Below are positions 8,381 through 64,000 of a DNA stretch of 64,000 nt, piece by piece. Source of the stretch: an uncultured Bacteroidales bacterium (lineage in GTDB: Bacteria; Bacteroidota; Bacteroidia; Bacteroidales; Paludibacteraceae); the NCBI GenBank assembly GCA_900316845.1, contig ONEG01000007.1, positions 24,266 to 88,265 on the forward strand, written 5' to 3'. The notes beneath the pieces are model-generated. The model was not told the origin of the DNA and made no database searches. It was given only the letters and a program-made list of their open reading frames with translations. Position numbers and translations under genes: made by a program. Numbering within the stretch: position 1 is the stretch's first letter; each line of letters starts with the position of its first letter.

Positions 8381-8469
8381 CGGAGAGTGAGGGATTCGAA
8401 CCCCCGATACGACGTAATGCGTATACCGCATTTCGAGTGCGGCTCTTTCGACCACTCAGACAACTCTCC
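8381..8469 (-). tRNA. tRNA-Ser (anticodon CGA)
   Basis: The minus strand folds as an 89-nt tRNA with a long variable arm, the class II form expected for serine. The acceptor stem is GGAGAGT/ACTCTCC with discriminator G. The anticodon arm is CCGCA-CTCGAAA-TGCGG with anticodon CGA, reading UCG. The T arm contains GGTTCGAATCC. The 3' CCA is not encoded. A strong promoter lies 50 bp upstream and a terminator immediately downstream. Confidence 0.95.
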
Positions 8470-14240: not shown

Positions 14241-14305
14241 GTCGGATAACATCCGACCTAATGAACGATGTTTTGCCGCATAGCATGCGGCGCAATGGAC
14301 GAAAG
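14241..14305. repeat. Two tandem copies (A, B) of the hairpin-plus-tail element
   Basis: Copy A has stem GTCGGAT/ATCCGAC (14241-14257) and tail CTAATGAACGATG. Copy B has stem GCCGCAT/ATGCGGC (14275-14291) and tail GCAATGGACGAAAG. Each has a 3-nt loop. The same layout recurs at least seven more times between 58.5 and 63.8 kb. Confidence 0.8.
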
Positions 14306-34156: not shown

Positions 34157-34192
34157 CAGCCGATTTTGAAAAGATAGCGCCTCAGGCGCAGA

Positions 34193-34243
34193 AAGAGGAT
34201 GGATTTGACTGCTTGCAACCTCGTAAAAAAAATGCTAAAAAGA
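34193..34243 (+). promoter_or_regulatory. SAM-II-type riboswitch upstream of metK
   Basis: The leader has the SAM-II order of conserved elements. A P1 strand GAGG (34195-34198) is followed by GGATTTGAC and CTTGCAA. The matching P1 strand CCTC (34219-34222) with CGTAAA follows, then the conserved 3' strand GCTAAAAAG (34234-34242). SAM-II aptamers bind S-adenosylmethionine, the product of MetK, which gives feedback control. A GCGCC-TCA-GGCGC hairpin precedes it (34177-34189) and an intrinsic terminator follows. Confidence 0.8.
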
Positions 34244-34272
34244 GTCGAAAGTCGAAAGACAAGAGACAAGAG
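34243..34272. repeat. GTCGAAA and AGACAAG short repeats in the metK leader
   Basis: Two GTCGAAA units and two AGACAAG units lie between the riboswitch and the terminator. Confidence 0.7.
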
Positions 34273-34332: not shown

Positions 34333-35586
34333 ATGCATTATTTATTTACCAGTGAATCGGTGTCGGAAGGACACCCGGATAAAGTGAGCGACCAGATCTC
34401 GGACGCGATCTTGGATAATATGTTGGCGCAGGACGAGCATGCGCACGTAGCGTGTGAGACGCTCTGTACGACCGGACAAGTGGTCATCGCCGGCGAAGTG
34501 AGTTGTAAAGGATGGGTAGATATCCAGCAGATTGTCCGTAAGACCATCGCAGAGATCGGTTACACGAAGGCGGAGTATAAGTTCGAGGCGGAGAGTTGCG
34601 GCATCCTGACTGCCCTGCACGCGCAAAGCCAGGACATCAATATGGGCGTGAGCCGAGAGGTAGCGGAAGAACAAGGTGCCGGCGACCAGGGCATGATGTT
34701 CGGTTACGCGACGGACGAGACGGATAACTTCATGCCCTTGACGCTGGACTTGGCGCATACCTTAGTTTATACGCTTGCGCGTATCCGCAAGGAAGGCAAA
34801 CAAATGCTTTACCTCCGCCCGGACAGTAAGAGCCAGGTAACCATCGAATATGACGAGCAGAACCGCCCGGTACGTATCGACACCATCGTTTTATCCACCC
34901 AACACGACGAAGGCGTGACGCCGGAGATGATCAAGAGAGATATCATCGAGATCCTCCTGCCGCGCGTAGCGACGCGTGACAGCCGTTACGGACATCTGCT
35001 CCATGACTTCCTTGAGGACAAGAACGCGAAACTTTTGGTGAACCCGACGGGAAACTTCGTCATCGGCGGTCCTCACGGCGACACGGGTCTGACGGGCCGA
35101 AAGATCATCGTGGACACCTACGGCGGTCGCGGCGCTCACGGCGGTGGTGCGTTCAGCGGCAAGGACCCGTCGAAGGTCGATCGCTCGGCAGCCTACGCGG
35201 CACGATGGATCGCCAAGCACTTGGTAGCAGCCGGCGTAGCGCACGAGGCGCTGGTACAAGTGAGCTACGCCATCGGCGTAGCCGAGCCCGTTTCCCTCTA
35301 CGTCAACACCTACGGAACGGCGCAGGTCAAAGCAAGCGATGCGGAGATCGCGCAGAAAGTGTCGGAACTCTTTGACCTCCGTCCGGCAGCCATCATCCGC
35401 GACCTGAAGCTGACGCAACCGATATACGAAGAGACCGCCAAGTACGGTCATGTAGGCCGCACGAACGAGGTAGTGAAGAAGACCTTCTTCGACGCCGACG
35501 GCAAGAGTTTTGAACGCGAAGTAGAGTTATTTACATGGGAGAAATTAGACCGGATAGACGCAGTCAAAGCCAAGTTTGGCTTGTAA
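34333..35586 (+). CDS. metK: S-adenosylmethionine synthetase
   Basis: The 417-residue protein makes S-adenosylmethionine from methionine and ATP. Family motifs are plain: [20 protein letters not shown] at the N-terminus, [12 protein letters not shown], and [20 protein letters not shown]. Length is slightly above the usual 390-400. It is preceded by a SAM-II-type riboswitch and attenuator. Its 3' end overlaps lspA by 52 bp in another frame, so the two are coupled. Confidence 0.97.
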
Positions 35587-58556: not shown

Positions 58557-58586
58557 CTCGGATGACATCCGAGGCAATAGACGATG
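58557..58586. repeat. Hairpin-plus-tail element, copy C
   Basis: Stem CTCGGAT/ATCCGAG (58557-58573), loop GAC, tail GCAATAGACGATG. Confidence 0.8.
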
Positions 58587-58589
58587 AAA

Positions 58590-58618
58590 TAAAAAACGAC
58601 CGCGTGATGCGGCCGTTT
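58590..58618 (-). terminator. Intrinsic terminator after the DUF3987 gene
   Basis: AAACG.CCGC-GTGAT-GCGG.CGTTT is followed on the minus strand by six T. It lies between hairpin elements C and D. Confidence 0.75.
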
Positions 58619-58621
58619 GAT

Positions 58622-58653
58622 GTGCGGATACAATCCACACGCAATAGACAAAG
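58622..58653. repeat. Hairpin-plus-tail element, copy D
   Basis: Stem GTGCGGAT/ATCCACAC (58622-58640, one mismatch), tail GCAATAGACAAAG. The tail begins 2 nt after the DUF3987 stop codon on the minus strand. Confidence 0.75.
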
Positions 58654-58655
58654 TA

Positions 58656-60110
58656 TTATAACTTCTTGTACTTAGCTTCGCCGATTTGCTCGATCTTGTG
58701 GTTGGTGCGCCAGCGGTTAAGGACCATACAGATGGCATTGTTCTTGACCGATTGACCTTTACGGGCACGGAGTTTGATGAGATCGGCAGTACTAAACTCC
58801 GCGGGCAGTAATGCCAGGAGAGAAGCGGCTGAACCTCTTTCGCCGGAGAGCACTTCGAGTGCGCCGGAAAGTTCTTGCTCCATCTGTTCGCCCCAGAGTT
58901 CCATCTGATTGCGGAACACATATTCGGCAACCCATTCCGCGAACTGACCTACAGTCTTGGTGAACTTGCGGTTTTCAAGGAGATAGCAGAGCATACCTGC
59001 GCGGAAGCCGATAACACCGGCACGACGGCGAAGCGTATCCATAGCGTGAGAGTCTGCGTCGATGGCTTGTTGGCGCTTGGCTTCGAGCCAGTTGGCAATA
59101 ACCGTGTTCAGTTGCGGACAAACGAGTGTGCCTTGTTCGGCATCGAGACGACGCGCCCAACGGATGATCTCCTCTTTCTCCGCTTCCGTATAGGGAGCGA
59201 AAACGGGAATTTCGGTAAACGAAGTGTCGGGCAGTTGCGCGAAACAAACACGTGTTGCAAGACCGTTTTCGAGGTCTTTGAAGAACCGCTTCATAGAGTT
59301 GGGTGTGCCGGTAAGAAGCAAGTTGTAATAGACCTTGATATGCGCATTAAAACTGGAATCGGACATGTAGGCTTGACCATATTCGGCATTGTCGAACGCA
59401 AGACGATAGATGTCGGATTTCTGACTCCAGACACCTGCACGTTCGGACTTGACCAGTGTGTCCATTTCCTCGCCGATACCGATGAGGTGTTTGCCTTCTG
59501 CGTAGGTTAGCAGTTGGAGCAACTTGGCAATCGAAATGGCTACGCCATTGTTACGCGGACAAGCGTGCGGGTCTTCAGGTTGGTTCTTGCTGTTCTTCGA
59601 GGCACGGAGTTTCTCCTTGTACGATTGCTCTTTCTCGCGCTCGATGGCATCTTGCTCGTTGATCGGAGTGAGCAGCAGATCCAGCGGTTTGCGGATAAAG
59701 GACTTACCGGATGCGGCAGGTGCGGTGATACACGAGAAGAAGGACAGCGATTGCTCTTGGCGGTCGAGGTACTCGAAGCGGATGCGTGTTGCCAAAGTGC
59801 CGAGGACAGGAAGCGAAGCAATGATCATCGCAGCACGATAGTCTTCGGGCAAGCGGCGGCATACCAGTTTGAGCAGACGCGGCAGTTCGGGCAAAGGCAA
59901 CGCCGTAGATTTCTCCAGTGGTGATTGTTCGTCCAGATGCGCTTCCTTCTCGCAAATGGCGATTGCCGATTGGAGCACCATGGGTTTCTGCGACTTACGC
60001 GGACGACCGATGGCGGAAGCGATGGCGCTGCGTCGTTCGGCTTCGGACAGACCAAAATCCGGCAAGATACGAAGCAAGAGATCGGCATTGAAATCGGTGA
60101 TGTACCGCAT
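58656..60110 (-). CDS. DUF3987-family primase-helicase-like protein of a mobile element
   Basis: The 484-residue protein matches DUF3987, the ATPase part of Bacteroidota mobile-element primase-helicases. The segment LPVLGTLATRIRFEYLDRQE precedes a Walker-A-like APAASGKSF, and later IGIGEEMDTLVKSER, FDNAEYGQ and LLTGTPNSMKRFF are family-like. It follows the VirE_N gene after 41 bp. The two are often one protein and here are split. A lone tail domain of similar proteins lies at 14406-14639. The gene ends at hairpin element D and a terminator. Confidence 0.82.
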   Translation of the reverse strand: MRYITDFNADLLLRILPDFGLSEAERRSAIASAIGRPRKSQKPMVLQSAIAICEKEAHLDEQSPLEKSTALPLPELPRLLKLVCRRLPEDYRAAMIIASLPVLGTLATRIRFEYLDRQEQSLSFFSCITAPAASGKSFIRKPLDLLLTPINEQDAIEREKEQSYKEKLRASKNSKNQPEDPHACPRNNGVAISIAKLLQLLTYAEGKHLIGIGEEMDTLVKSERAGVWSQKSDIYRLAFDNAEYGQAYMSDSSFNAHIKVYYNLLLTGTPNSMKRFFKDLENGLATRVCFAQLPDTSFTEIPVFAPYTEAEKEEIIRWARRLDAEQGTLVCPQLNTVIANWLEAKRQQAIDADSHAMDTLRRRAGVIGFRAGMLCYLLENRKFTKTVGQFAEWVAEYVFRNQMELWGEQMEQELSGALEVLSGERGSAASLLALLPAEFSTADLIKLRARKGQSVKNNAICMVLNRWRTNHKIEQIGEAKYKKL

Positions 60111-60151
60111 GTACGTGGAGAGCGAGAAATAGACCGTGTTGCGCTCGCCTA

Positions 60152-61021
60152 CTATTGCTCCCCCGGCATTTTGATGTCGGCATACGGAATACCGCGGTAA
60201 GATAAGGAGCCTACCTCCGACTCCTCCCTAAAGGGAAGAGATGTTCCCGAATTAAATTCGGGGCTAACAGACGAAGGAACAACGTGTGGCGGGAGAGCGA
60301 GACGCGGAGATTTCTCGCTCGCGGGAATAGCCGCGAGAGTTGAACCAGCGGATGGATGCGGCTCTGGTGAGCCGTTGTCCGGATTCAATCCGGACGCAAT
60401 GGACGAAGAAAACAGACCAGACTCGTCGATATAAAGGATATAATCGCGGGGAACGACATACGAGGCACGAGCGAGATCCTTGGTGACCGCATCGTACTCG
60501 GTGATGTTGAGTGCGGTTGCCATGCGGAGTTGGGCGGCTTCGATGGATTCGAGTTGTCGGATACTATCCGACCCAATGGACGATGTTTTCTCCGCGCTGA
60601 CGCCCGGAGCACCTGACAAAGAAAGACGCTCGCCGATGATGCGGAGACCTTTTCCGCTGGCGGTGATGGAGACCAGATAGATGCGATTGTCAGACAAGAG
60701 TTGTTTGGCTATGGAATCAAACCACTCTTTCGGATTGTCCACATGATCCACGTCGAGCATAGCGAGACCGGAGGGGATGGCATCGGCGGAGATGCGCTTG
60801 CCGTTACGGAAAGAGGCGGCGTGCGGGATGATGATAGGCAGACGACGTTTGAGCGCTTGTTTGCGGTCGTTGTAGTCTGGAGTGGACGGATCCAATGCGG
60901 CGATCTGGTCGCAGATGGACTTGACTTCGGGACTGTCGATGAGTTGGTCCCAGATGGCTTTGGTCAACGGCTTGGGTTGACCTTTGGTTACAGATTGTTG
61001 AAAAGAGATTCTTGATTCCAT
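60152..61021 (-). CDS. VirE_N (BT4734-like) primase-associated protein carrying three in-frame palindromic elements
   Basis: The 289-residue protein has the BT4734-like N-terminal domain of mobile primases, with SGLAMLDVDHVDNPKEWFDS and IYLVSITASGKGLRIIGERL. Hairpin elements F, E and G lie in its coding sequence at about residues 145-155, 204-215 and 248-258, all in the same reading frame and starting TCGTC. They encode SSIGSDSIRQL, SSIASGLNPDN and SSVSPEFNSGT. A GGGGAGG-type repeat encodes part of the end. The conserved domain stops near residue 190, so the insertions fill a tolerant tail. Confidence 0.8.
   Translation of the reverse strand: MESRISFQQSVTKGQPKPLTKAIWDQLIDSPEVKSICDQIAALDPSTPDYNDRKQALKRRLPIIIPHAASFRNGKRISADAIPSGLAMLDVDHVDNPKEWFDSIAKQLLSDNRIYLVSITASGKGLRIIGERLSLSGAPGVSAEKTSSIGSDSIRQLESIEAAQLRMATALNITEYDAVTKDLARASYVVPRDYILYIDESGLFSSSIASGLNPDNGSPEPHPSAGSTLAAIPASEKSPRLALPPHVVPSSVSPEFNSGTSLPFREESEVGSLSYRGIPYADIKMPGEQ
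60214..60240. repeat. CTCCTCCCTAAAGGGAAGAG repeat inside the VirE_N gene
   Basis: In-frame copy of the CTCC.GGAG-type repeat also seen near 16945 and 31996. Confidence 0.5.
60246..60276. repeat. Hairpin-plus-tail element, copy G (in coding sequence)
   Basis: Stem CCCGAAT/ATTCGGG (60246-60262), loop TAA, tail GCTAACAGACGAAG with one extra base. Confidence 0.75.
60377..60408. repeat. Hairpin-plus-tail element, copy E (in coding sequence)
   Basis: Stem GTCCGGAT/ATCCGGAC (60377-60395), loop TCA, tail GCAATGGACGAAG. Confidence 0.85.
60556..60585. repeat. Hairpin-plus-tail element, copy F (in coding sequence)
   Basis: Stem GTCGGAT/ATCCGAC (60556-60572), loop ACT, tail CCAATGGACGATG. Confidence 0.85.
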
Positions 61022-61030
61022 TTGGTTTAA

Positions 61031-61408
61031 TTATTTGATGTTACTTTTGTTAGCATTCCACTTGTCTTGGTGCTTCTCTGCCGCAAGGGCGCGATTAACT
61101 GCGTTTTTCCAGTTGTAGCCGACAGGATGAATTTCGGCATGGTCGGACGGATATTCCTTGCGGACTTTCTTGGCACGCTTGTGGACGGAGTGCTGCATGG
61201 TTTGCCATTGTTCATCTGACACTTCGAGTTTCTCGATAGTTTGCGAATTGAACTTGTCGCAATCGATGATGATGTCTTGCATCGTACCTCGGCAGTGCGT
61301 TTTAAGCGGTACACCATTGACACCGCGCACCCATCCATTTTCGGCGTAGAAGGGGCAGTCCTTTGAACAAGGACCGCCACCTATCGTTACAGAAATTACT
61401 TGCCGCAT
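61031..61408 (-). CDS. Small cysteine-containing protein of unknown function (mobile region)
   Basis: The 125-residue product begins MRQVISVTIGGGPCSKDCPF and has further cysteines in KTHCRG and IIDCDKF, so a metal or zinc-binding knuckle is possible. The rest is basic and helical. I recognise no family. It lies 9 bp before the VirE_N gene and overlaps the upstream gene by 13 bp, so all four leftward genes here are probably one transcript. Confidence 0.65.
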   Translation of the reverse strand: MRQVISVTIGGGPCSKDCPFYAENGWVRGVNGVPLKTHCRGTMQDIIIDCDKFNSQTIEKLEVSDEQWQTMQHSVHKRAKKVRKEYPSDHAEIHPVGYNWKNAVNRALAAEKHQDKWNANKSNIK

Positions 61409-61830
61409 TTTGCTACCTCCTCCTCCATGTTGATGTCAGCCAATGCTTCGCCTATCTGCTCCGCCTCGGAAACAAGAAGGTCAGCGAGTTGGCATGCGTC
61501 GGTTAGGTACTCTTCATGTCTTGCGTACAGGATCAGCATTGCGCCATTGGCATTGACTGATACCTTGCCGTGTAGCGAACCTGCCAGCGGATGCCATTGG
61601 AGGTCGCTGCGCTTGGTCGGCGCTTTCGGGGCTTTGCTCATTGAAGACCCTTCGGGTTCATCGTCTTCTACAAAAGTCGAATTATCTTCGCCCTCGTAGG
61701 TTAACGTGCCATGATAGGACTTGCCTTCAATGGCGTGATGCGCATTAAGCAACAGTTTGAGGTCGGTACAGCGTTTGGTGTCCGGATTCTTAGCAAAAAT
61801 CGATTGGACGTTGTGGGTTCTCTTACTCAT
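61396..61830 (-). CDS. Small protein of unknown function (mobile region)
   Basis: The 144-residue product starts MSKRTHNVQSIFAKNPDTKR, has a Ser/Lys/Pro-rich middle (SSMSKAPKAPTKRSD) and an acidic C-terminal helix (LLVSEAEQIGEALADINMEE). No family is recognised. It is the first gene of the leftward group leading to the VirE_N and DUF3987 genes. No clear promoter matching the local consensus is found in the 270 bp upstream. Confidence 0.6.
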   Translation of the reverse strand: MSKRTHNVQSIFAKNPDTKRCTDLKLLLNAHHAIEGKSYHGTLTYEGEDNSTFVEDDEPEGSSMSKAPKAPTKRSDLQWHPLAGSLHGKVSVNANGAMLILYARHEEYLTDACQLADLLVSEAEQIGEALADINMEEEVAKCGK

Positions 61831-62006
61831 TTTGGTAGAAAATTGTGCCAGTCGTAATCCCTTTATTCGATGGTCAACTCTGAGGATGTTCGAGGGTCGA
61901 GCCTTCCATCGATTATTATACCCTCTTTGGATTGGCGAGTGTTACAATTTTTATTATTTTACCTTGCGGCTTACACTATTAAATAGACGAAAAATGTGCC
62001 ATTCAA

Positions 62007-62092
62007 TTTCGTGAGAGGTTCACCTGTTTTCGTGAGTAGAGGTCTGCCACGAAAGTCATTTTCGCGAGCCATGAAACTTTTCGTGGCAGACC
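62007..62092. repeat. Iterated TTTCGTGAG units and a 14-bp inverted repeat
   Basis: TTTCGTGAG occurs at 62007 and 62028. Related forms are CACGAAA (62048-62054), TTTCGCGAG (62060) and TTTCGTGGC (62079). GGTCTGCCACGAAA (62041-62054) and TTTCGTGGCAGACC (62079-62092) are perfect inverted repeats. The layout resembles iterons or a regulator-binding site. Confidence 0.6.
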
Positions 62093-62102
62093 AACCACCT
62101 CA

Positions 62103-62525
62103 TTATCGGGCACTCTCTTTGTTAAACAATCTGGTCAGATCGTTGTACAGAATGCGCCAACGTCGGATCATACCCGGATCGCGTTGGACTTCATTCCAAG
62201 GATAGCGTGCTCCGTTGATGTGTCTGTGCGCGAGACTCATTTCGTAGGCTGAATAGTGCGCTTTTCGCTGCGGAACGTTATTATCTCGCAGCCATTCTTC
62301 AAACGCTTTTAGTGGCGGACGCATGGGATTTCGTTTCATCAATCCGTTGTCTTGTAGCCATTGCAAGACCGCTAACCAGTCCCAATCTTCACAGACGAGC
62401 ATAATTCGTCCGGGGGAGCCGATCCATGAGGTGATGTCGATGGAACGGTTTTGCATGCGGTTTAAAACTACGAGCAATTGCTCTTTTCTCTTTTTGTCGT
62501 TTGACAATAAAATTTTTGTTCCCAT
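62103..62525 (-). CDS. Small protein of unknown function (mobile region)
   Basis: The 140-residue product (MGTKILLSNDKKRKEQLLVV ...) is basic, with several tryptophans and a helical C-terminal half (MIRRWRILYNDLTRLFNKES). No family is recognised. A possible promoter (minus-strand TACCTTTG at 62650-62657) would give a 120-nt leader. The stop codon lies next to the iterated TTTCGTGAG region, so that region could also be its terminator. Confidence 0.55.
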   Translation of the reverse strand: MGTKILLSNDKKRKEQLLVVLNRMQNRSIDITSWIGSPGRIMLVCEDWDWLAVLQWLQDNGLMKRNPMRPPLKAFEEWLRDNNVPQRKAHYSAYEMSLAHRHINGARYPWNEVQRDPGMIRRWRILYNDLTRLFNKESAR

Positions 62526-62649
62526 TGTGGTTTGTTTTTTTAGGGGTTACAATTGGCATCTACCGGAAGTCCATTTGTCGGGTTCGTCGGATGCTTTCTA
62601 CTATACCTGCAAAAGTTTGTTAGCGGTTTACTCTAGCGTTTTTTTTCTG

Positions 62650-62657
62650 CAAAGGTA
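62650..62657 (-). promoter_or_regulatory. Possible -7 element for the 62103-62525 gene
   Basis: Minus-strand TACCTTTG followed by GCAG, like the other promoters. The -33 region is not convincing. Confidence 0.4.
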
Positions 62658-62731
62658 GTGGTTGATTTGCGATTGTTTTGGTCGGTTTTGGTACAATCTG
62701 CATCTACGATACGCGAATTTAGTTGTAGGGG

Positions 62732-62905
62732 TTAGCTCTCGCGCGTGTACATCATGTGCGCCTAGACAAGTGTAAGTATGTAGATCCCTTCTACGACCCG
62801 GAGAAAGCCATGCAGTGGGTTACTTTCAGCCCGAAATGGCTGAAATCATTCACTACTTCACAGATTCACACATCGAAATATGTTGGTATTTTGGTCATAA
62901 TATAA
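62732..62905 (+). pseudogene. Possible gene remnant
   Basis: An open stretch without a good start codon reads RLDKCKYVDPFYDPEKAMQW, then VTFSPKWLK, which looks like real protein, and then decays into low-complexity sequence. Family unknown. A TTTCAGCC/GGCTGAAA stem (62824-62845) lies within it. Confidence 0.25.
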
Positions 62906-62928
62906 TATAATGTATTATATTATATTAT
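62897..62928. repeat. AT-only palindrome
   Basis: TAATATAATATAAT and ATTATATTATATTA are perfect inverted repeats around GT. It could be an easily melted or cruciform-forming site. Confidence 0.7.
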
Positions 62929-62929
62929 A

Positions 62930-63230
62930 TATTATGGAGATAAGATGAAGATAAAAAAATGTGTGAAAGTGTGAAAATGTTAATAGGAAGGGGAAAGATG
63001 TCTTGCGAAAAAATGTCGAGGGCACCGACACGGCAAGCCTTCCCACCTCGAAATATAAGTGGTGCTATTCTGAATATCAAAATTGCAGGTTACACCTTAT
63101 TGCTTAGCAGTCCTTTGTTCGATTGTGTACAAGCACACATCGCCCAAATGACTATAATCAATATTTTTGAAAAAAAATGCAATTTTGATAAAAAAGTTGC
63201 GGAAAAATTTGGAAAAGGTAAAATGTTTGA
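62930..63230. other. Gene-free spacer
   Basis: No convincing gene is seen. The one open frame (62959-63270) runs through promoter and repeat sequence and lacks protein-like composition. Confidence 0.5.
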
Positions 63231-63240
63231 CGTATCTTTG
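63209..63240 (+). promoter_or_regulatory. Bacteroidota-type promoter for the 63420 gene
   Basis: TTTG (63209-63212) and TATCTTTG (63233-63240). The transcript starts about 175 nt before the first start codon. Confidence 0.55.
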
Positions 63241-63288
63241 CAGCGTCGTTCGGGAAAGAGGGCAAGATAAGGCAGAAAGATGACGTCT

Positions 63289-63321
63289 AACCTCTGCTTA
63301 ACCTCTGCTCAACCGGTGCTG
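63289..63321. repeat. 11-bp AACCTCTGCTT repeat
   Basis: Two AACCTCTGCT(T/C) units and a third diverged unit lie in the leader of the 63420 gene. Confidence 0.6.
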
Positions 63322-63331
63322 TCGCCAAAAT

Positions 63332-63363
63332 GTCGGAATCATATTCCGACGCAACAGACAAAA
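63332..63363. repeat. Hairpin-plus-tail element, copy H
   Basis: Stem GTCGGAAT/ATTCCGAC (63332-63350), loop CAT, tail GCAACAGACAAAA. Confidence 0.8.
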
Positions 63364-63377
63364 TAATTTATTAACCC

Positions 63378-63398
63378 ATCCGCCATATATAGGCGGAT
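63378..63398 (+). promoter_or_regulatory. Leader hairpin before the 63420 gene
   Basis: ATCCGCC-ATATATA-GGCGGAT. A counterpart with CCATATATGG lies in the same position before the 63929 gene. Confidence 0.5.
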
Positions 63399-63419
63399 AC
63401 AAACCAAACTTTAACTATT

Positions 63420-63722
63420 ATGGCAAAGTATGTTCCTATTGAAATGGTCAAGTCGTATAGCGGCAAGATCTGTGAACACTCCGATGTGTATTTTGCGAAA
63501 AAAGGTAATACCCTGTACACGGGTAAAATCTGCAATCCTCGCACCAAACCGTTCAGCGAACAAGAGTTGGCTCGTCAGACGAAATTCCGTCAGGCGATTG
63601 CGGCTGTCAATGCGCTGACCGAGGAGCAGAAGACCGCTTACGCGACCGCGTTCAAGAACCAGAACAAGTACGGTACGCTGCGCGGATACATGTTCGCAAA
63701 AGAGTACGAGAAGTTGGCGTAA
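63420..63722 (+). CDS. Small protein of unknown function (mobile or phage-like region)
   Basis: The 100-residue product begins MAKYVPIEMVKSYSGKICEH and ends GTLRGYMFAKEYEKLA. It is basic and looks compact and helical, without a signal peptide or recognisable motif. The leader has hairpin element H, TTATTAACCC, a second hairpin and TTAACTAT just before ATG. The same module precedes the next gene, so the two are probably controlled alike and could encode structural or DNA-binding proteins of the element. Confidence 0.65.
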   Translation: MAKYVPIEMVKSYSGKICEHSDVYFAKKGNTLYTGKICNPRTKPFSEQELARQTKFRQAIAAVNALTEEQKTAYATAFKNQNKYGTLRGYMFAKEYEKLA

Positions 63723-63784
63723 TCTCGGCGGGATAGCGCCGAGGAGTAAACCTCAGAGTTGAAACTCGGCGCTGACGAGCCGAT

Positions 63785-63816
63785 GTCGGGATTAAATCCC
63801 GACGCAATGAACGAAG
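63785..63816. repeat. Hairpin-plus-tail element, copy I
   Basis: Stem GTCGGGAT/ATCCCGAC (63785-63803), loop TAA, tail GCAATGAACGAAG. A second small palindrome CCGCGG-AATA-CCGCGG follows at about 63821-63836. Confidence 0.85.
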
Positions 63817-63860
63817 AAAACCGCGGAATACCGCGGGAAACAAACAAAATTATTAACCCG

Positions 63861-63880
63861 ATCGCCCATATATGGTCGAT
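63861..63880 (+). promoter_or_regulatory. Leader hairpin before the 63929 gene
   Basis: ATCG.CCATATATGG.CGAT forms a nearly perfect stem, parallel to the hairpin at 63378-63398. Confidence 0.5.
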
Positions 63881-63928
63881 ACTGATAAGTAGAGAGCATA
63901 AGGGCGGTCACAAACCTAAACATTAACT

Positions 63929-64000
63929 ATGGCAAGTGTAACTTATTCAGCCGGAATTGATCATGTGTCCGGCGCATTGTCCAAACCCGGTAAGAGCGGT
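63929..64000 (+). CDS. Small protein of unknown function (partial, runs off window)
   Basis: Twenty-four codons are visible, beginning MASVTYSAGIDHVSGALSKP. The family is not recognised. The gene follows a leader with the same module as the 63420 gene. The rest lies beyond the window edge. Confidence 0.55.
   Translation, partial: MASVTYSAGIDHVSGALSKPGKSG

Follow-up and report, generated by a model that had tools for sequence, protein, structure and literature searches.

The closest described relatives of the element studied here are repetitive extragenic palindromic (REP) sequences and the REP-associated tyrosine transposases (RAYT). In Bacteroidetes, palindromes flank and also lie inside Y1 transposase genes (PMC6006769). 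TnpA-REP subclass 2.4, found in Cyanobacteria and Bacteroidetes, has in-frame palindromes inside the gene and double-foot forms (PMC6006769). Bacteroidetes also contain CGTC-tagged palindromes, two families of which have been equated with the Rickettsia palindromic elements RPE-4 and RPE-6 (PMC3733652). That source also states that, in the CGTC-bearing species, no tyrosine transposase gene had CGTC units at its flanks. In this study, we analyse 64,000 nucleotides (the window) of an uncultured Bacteroidales bacterium of the Paludibacteraceae (assembly GCA_900316845.1, contig ONEG01000007.1, positions 24,266 to 88,265), in which an original prediction made from the letters of the DNA had placed at least nine copies of a hairpin with a conserved tail, here called family 1. 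We conclude that these copies are probably REP-like palindromes of a REPtron-type system, for which a Y1/HUH RAYT carrying a DprA-like domain at its C-terminus is the most likely cognate enzyme.

All nine sites carry the predicted hairpin with its 3-nt loop, followed by a tail. The inverted repeats are real and measure 7-8 bp instead of the 7-9 bp given before; they are perfect in eight copies, and the copy at 58622 contains one C.A mismatch. For the copy placed at 60246, the sequence favours a stem that starts at 60245 with an outer T-G pair. The tail, which had been described as fixed sequence, turned out to be variable: NNAA is followed by a variable stretch and then by AC(G/A)AAG, written in full as NNAA(T)(G/A)(G/A)AC(G/A)AAG. 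A scan of the window for stems of at least 6 bp with a tail of at most 4 mismatches gave eight sites on the plus strand and none on the minus strand. Among 20 Markov shuffles, 18 gave none and two gave one, so that the family clearly exceeds shuffled sequence. The window contains 13 hairpins with a 3-nt loop and a stem of 7 bp or more, compared with 4-5 in each of five shuffles; the centre AT-NNN-AT is present in nine of the 13, eight of which are elements reported earlier. The tail alone was rejected as a family signal since its 32 window matches barely exceed the shuffled mean of 20.3 and were equalled in 2 of 100 shuffles. Two covariance models, R1 and R2, each recover eight of the nine copies and together all nine.

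Family 1 is dispersed far beyond the window, as had been proposed. R1 was built from five window copies and gave 70 own-genome matches at E up to 1, with 150 of 431 candidates scored. R2, built from 68 own-genome matches, found at least 69 at E up to 1e-3. R2 matched 53 of the 61 genomes of the genus, the own genome among them, and none of 40 others; the R2 counts per genome, with 67 candidates scored in each, are lower bounds. Read on the opposite strand, the tail forms a tag, which among the 63 distinct rows used for tag and foot composition is CGTC in 29, TGTC in 15, CGTT in 10 and TGTT in 5 (YGTY in 59 of 63). About 6 bases set this tag apart from the inner stem.

The partner gene was reached through the Y1_Tnp matches of the own genome. 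RAYT1 (G000:C20:112959-113951) is followed directly on its 3' side by 53-bp units in tandem, every one of which holds a family-1 hairpin. The first unit overlaps the stop codon, and one further family-1 element lies in frame within the gene. Looking for TnpA-REP-like genes, as had been advised, yielded five RAYT genes in the own genome and RAYT1 homologues (E up to 1e-10) in 42 of the 61 same-genus genomes, with none in the 40 others. At 34 RAYT loci, R2 (E up to 0.05, with matches that overlap on the two strands counted once) matched 43 times within the RAYT-matched span, 44 times within 250 bp of it (16.1 kb) and 5 times in the other 67.2 kb; element density within 250 bp outside RAYT is about 37-fold that farther away. 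Of the 43 span matches, eleven (all in locus L093) are situated in the gap between two adjacent RAYT copies and not in a gene. Family-1 elements are linked to RAYT genes. One option of the original prediction, namely that the tail could be a recognition site for a transposase, is supported.

Within the gene, the element occupies a single loop, near residues 113-148, in 28 of 30 loci of the RAYT1 clade. L087 and L094 have no internal R2 match, L094 still having a hairpin at that place. A few RAYT genes contain stops (L078, L082), so 'in frame' is true of most and not of all. Among 80 named-genome loci with the closest transposases, a perfect hairpin stands at the same gene position in 69, a few of which may be unrelated (shuffles predict about 1 of 80), and R2 matches there in nine of the remaining 11. 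Element density at these loci is 0.70 per kb inside the gene, 1.37 near and 0.057 far (150 best of 220 R2 rows); as the 34-locus and 80-locus sets share some contigs, they are not independent. The 80 records mostly name uncultured Bacteroidales or Paludibacteraceae, and many refer to the gut of sheep, goat, deer or reindeer.

Many RAYT-internal copies have a double-foot form, in which an outer stem surrounds the inner hairpin and the 3' foot is matched by the tail of the dispersed copies. The outer stem covaries: at six pair positions, picked after viewing the register table, 64 distinct copies out of 69 internal hairpins have 89 double changes, compared with an average of 37.9 and never more than 55 in 500 shuffles; neighbouring registers give 37 and 19. 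Tandem arrays differ in length between close relatives. L166 and L174, whose RAYTs are nearly identical by eye, hold 3 and 5 in-frame 39-bp units (palindrome-coded repeats of 13 residues), and the RAYT1 array has two more 53-bp units than the 95% identical RAYT of L130, the wider flanks being unrelated. This suggests that local amplification acts too. The record of L174 is titled Spirochaetales (RUG11946) and that of L166 UBP6 UBA1196, which may reflect a naming or binning error or a transfer; RUG presumably denotes a rumen genome series.

Different RAYTs are accompanied by different palindromes. Two of the five own-genome genes, on C20 and C26, belong to the RAYT1 clade; a family-1 variant occurs both within the C26 gene and at its end, and the frame of this gene shifts near that end. 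The three distant genes (L015, L098 and L099) each have a different palindrome, which occurs within the gene as well as at or next to it: RAYT2 on C21 has CTCGCCG-type palindromes with a different tail, the C28 gene ATCCGCCA-type and the C19 gene ATCGTGCA-type palindromes. A second family in the window, family 2, recurs in and around the RAYT of G037:C67. Its model R3 gave nine own-genome matches, of which seven are training copies and the other two lie in the window.

RAYT1, as modelled, is a Y1 domain plus a DprA-like domain. The predicted structure (mean predicted local distance difference test score, pLDDT, 88) matches two transposases, ISDra2 and IS608, as well as the REP-bound RAYT 4ER8, and after these DprA. 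Modelled alone (pLDDT 91), the C-terminal 138 residues best match ShosA (E 2e-3, template modelling score 0.60), presumably a DprA relative, and Helicobacter pylori DprA (probability 0.97-0.98); DprA-family chains reach a fold probability of 0.97-1.00 and other folds at most 0.51 among the rows shown. H85, H87 and Y159 are invariant in all 29 aligned RAYT proteins, and among the 80 named loci the HUH pattern is present in 78 and the tyrosine pattern in 80. Motifs of the RAYT1 type are mostly DH[VLI]H and Y[VI]x[ML]NP, in proteins of about 330 residues. A sequence search of the PDB returned only weak ISDra2 matches (E 0.28). Among 395 Bacteroidota genomes including the own one, with no more than 5 candidates scored in each, 90 match RAYT1. 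The matches listed for the remaining 89 stop by position 188 of 332 and cover the Y1 part only, so within this sample the extension looks specific to the RAYT1 lineage. Titles and abstract starts of open-licence papers revealed no RAYT-DprA fusion, and DprA is mentioned 0 times in PMC6006769.

Copy number follows the RAYT clade. The median number of R2 matches is 18 in the 31 genomes in which the RAYT1 clade is represented (defined by a best identity of about 49% or above), 3 in the 11 with distant RAYTs only and 3 in the 19 with none (one-sided p 4.5e-5, and 0.003 among the 29 genomes at least 90% complete; incomplete genomes blur the test). A number of observations count against a REPtron-type system with this enzyme. 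Many matches occur in genomes with distant RAYTs only (G050 57, G055 26, G032 20) or with no RAYT detected (G021 28, G012 17, G016 15, G029 14), and G027 and G047, in which a RAYT1-clade gene is present, have one match each. RAYT-internal copies are inherited with the gene, so the loci are non-independent events, and the distant RAYT at L095 had no palindrome of its own that we could see. Neither an exact empty site nor a target duplication was seen by eye in the alignments, no dedicated search having been made. The GTAG/GTGG guide of REPtrons, at the 5' foot of the hairpin, was not found here. Concerning the enzyme, Pfam finds nothing at the C-terminus of 17 RAYT proteins, and profile comparison with DprA (hhalign) is weak (probability 1.8%, E 0.028); the DprA likeness thus rests on fold.

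Some of these data would also suit selfish palindromes that have no dedicated enzyme, as Rickettsia palindromic elements have been described, and that owe their spread to recombination, to slippage or to some generic transposase, the RAYT loop being a tolerant landing site. Tandem arrays with changing copy number resemble slippage, several genomes in which the RAYT clade was not detected are rich in copies, and the linker of the BT4734-like_N gene described below gathers different palindromes too. We nevertheless regard this explanation as unlikely, because the roughly 37-fold enrichment lies in the 250 bp outside RAYT, where there is no loop to land in, because three other own-genome RAYTs have different palindromes of their own, and because copy number tracks the RAYT clade.

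As predicted, pairing is kept while the stem sequence changes. In 68 aligned own-genome rows (64 distinct), 97.7% of 473 cells are paired and 97 cells show changes on both sides of the stem, against a shuffled mean of 26.6 (standard deviation 7.1) and at most 21 in slid controls; the structure guided the alignment, a few rows of which are poor, so the count leans in favour of pairing. Stable stems maintained by compensatory change, together with the intergenic position of several window copies, would be expected of RNA elements, that is, transcribed hairpins under selection for an effect on mRNA stability, termination or translation. G-U intermediates are almost lacking: they make up 7 of 473 cells, and the outer pair accounts for 6 of these. 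This scarcity fits stems maintained at the DNA level. Moreover, copies lie within reading frames, their presence differs among relatives, they cluster at RAYT genes, and Rfam at gathering thresholds gave no family at any of the element sites, all of which makes an RNA role very improbable.

The original prediction had placed three in-frame copies inside a VirE_N gene. The Pfam entry concerned is now BT4734-like_N, which we take to be the former VirE_N, and the gene has relatives (E up to 1e-10) in 33 of the 121 genomes of the genus, counting the own one. The frame stays open through all its elements. In the DNA of six relatives (G145, G114, G120, G006, G046 and G160), the equivalents of residues 133-134 and 156-157 are directly adjacent, for example at G145:C51 7007/7008. 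Judged by this adjacency, the 22-residue segment with the 60556 copy is an in-frame insertion. The same linker holds different peptides in L104-L108, some of them palindrome-like. The copies at 60245 and 60377 are likely in-frame insertions as well; their presence differs among relatives less cleanly, and most of the element-bearing segments also occur in two close relatives, L101 and L102. This sharing would suit ancestral coding sequence that merely resembles the repeat, an idea rejected for the 60556 copy by the direct adjacency in six relatives and hardly credible overall in view of the different linker peptides and the matches outside genes. The claim that the protein is not broken held for the elements themselves, though not for the gene, which ends early: in most relatives shown, BT4734-like_N and DUF3987 form one open reading frame (ORF) of about 630-830 residues, and the split lies between 60110 and 60152. 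The window gene is probably broken, at a point outside the elements; an assembly error is the alternative.

Orientation of the copies bears on how they may move. Strand analysis used 65 of the 70 R1 rows, omitting two rows with a link to the C26 RAYT, two that duplicate others on the opposite strand and one without sequence. These rows form 33 clusters; in all 19 multi-copy clusters the copies lie on one strand (7.5 expected), and GC skew on the tail strand is positive in 26 of 32 clusters (p 5e-4), local duplication and gene direction being confounders of the bias. Transposition of IS200/IS605 is strand-specific (PMC8266576), and by analogy the bias fits, without proving, action on the lagging-strand template. 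The data show linkage to the RAYT; its catalysis and the movement of the element are inferred. On single-stranded DNA, which may be the lagging-strand template, the enzyme would recognise the hairpin in its folded state together with the tail as its foot, and would cut and join near this foot, moving hairpins as single-stranded DNA. The DprA-like domain might bind single-stranded DNA and aid annealing or RecA loading. Copies that break genes would be lost, so that survivors in genes stand in frame, in loops and linkers.

A bolder proposal, which we hold tentatively and with some doubt, is that the RAYT-DprA fusions of a lineage of gut Bacteroidales cut hairpins from single-stranded DNA and help their insertion through the DprA-like domain. 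Each of several such enzymes in a genome would insert a palindrome of its own, in frame, into flexible gene loops and linkers, beginning with its own gene. At least one such palindrome would bear a CGTC-like tag, a class reported without a transposase. Given that reported lack beside CGTC units, the RAYT linkage is the point of most interest here, the tag match being partial. It provides a concrete candidate pair of enzyme and element that falls outside the GTAG class, as well as a possible and testable answer to the apparent lack of a transposase for CGTC-like and Rickettsia-type palindromes. The Y1 domain with its DprA-like extension suggests a possible route from the excised single-stranded hairpin into annealing or recombination, and the in-frame copies within RAYT genes hint which palindrome goes with which enzyme.

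The features of the window are collected in Table 1. By eye, the ORFs at 63420 and about 63930 have alike upstream stretches (63368-63419 and 63850-63935) with TTATTAACCC, and both stretches contain a small CATATATAGG/CATATATGG hairpin. Elsewhere in the window, a SAM-II riboswitch at 34189-34248 (Rfam RF01726, 64.1 bits) lies upstream of the ORF 34333-35586, which we take to resemble S-adenosylmethionine synthase, and a tRNA match is found at 8381-8469 on the minus strand (Rfam RF00005).

Table 1. Palindromic elements and associated reading frames in the window.
Feature	Position	Strand	Support or remark
Family-1 element, hairpin plus tail	14241..14270	+	scan, R2
Family-1 element, hairpin plus tail	14275..14304	+	scan, R1; missed by R2
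Family-1 element	58557..58586	+	scan, R1, R2
Family-1 element, one C.A stem mismatch	58622..58653	+	R1, R2
Family-1 element within BT4734-like_N ORF	60245..60276	+	scan, R1, R2; presence differs among relatives
Family-1 element within BT4734-like_N ORF	60377..60408	+	scan, R1, R2; presence differs among relatives
Family-1 element within BT4734-like_N ORF, in 22-residue insertion	60556..60585	+	scan, R1, R2; six relatives join directly across
Family-1 element upstream of ORF at 63420	63332..63363	+	scan, R1, R2
Family-1 element downstream of ORF 63420-63722	63785..63816	+	scan, R1, R2
Family-2 palindrome, stem 7, loop 6, within BT4734-like_N ORF	60318..60352	+	R3
Family-2 palindrome adjoining family-1 copy	63724..63751	+	R3
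BT4734-like_N (VirE_N) ORF with three family-1 copies and one family-2 copy, premature end compared with relatives	60152..61021	-	
DUF3987 ORF, fused to BT4734-like_N domain in most relatives shown	58656..60110	-	
Segment for residues 135-156, missing from several relatives	60554..60619	-	computed from ORF start 61021

That no family of this kind had been described in Bacteroidota was overstated in the original prediction, as both CGTC palindromes (PMC3733652) and Y1-linked palindromes (PMC6006769) are reported there. With REPtrons (PMC6006769, PMC8266576), family 1 has in common short palindromes dispersed in many copies, a Y1/HUH gene with palindromes alongside, and feet flanking the hairpin; the catalytic HUH and tyrosine residues are kept in the RAYT1 clade. 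It differs in that YGTY stands in the foot, several bases from the inner stem, and in that a genome holds up to five RAYT genes with a DprA-like extension. TnpA-REP subclass 2.4 shares the in-frame palindrome in the gene and the double-foot form, whereas its motifs NH[IFV]H and YIxNNP and its GT[AG]G foot do not recur here, and its median length is 194 residues compared with about 330 (PMC6006769). The N-terminal part of the RAYT has the fold of IS200/IS605 transposases and the C-terminal part that of DprA, with weak sequence likeness; here, unlike in either, both parts are joined in one protein. The likeness to Rickettsia palindromic elements drawn in the original prediction is well taken with regard to in-frame copies in genes, as a likeness by description. 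CGTC REPs share in-frame genic copies and Bacteroidetes hosts, and the tag matches in part; they have stems of 8-9 bp, loops of 4-5 and the tag at the stem end, and are reported without a transposase (PMC3733652), whereas family 1 has stems of 7-8 bp, a loop of 3, a tag about 6 bases away and an adjoining transposase gene. Family 1 is neither a canonical GTAG REP nor cleanly any of the four CGTC families; it may be akin to the CGTC-tagged REPs despite its other stem and loop sizes.

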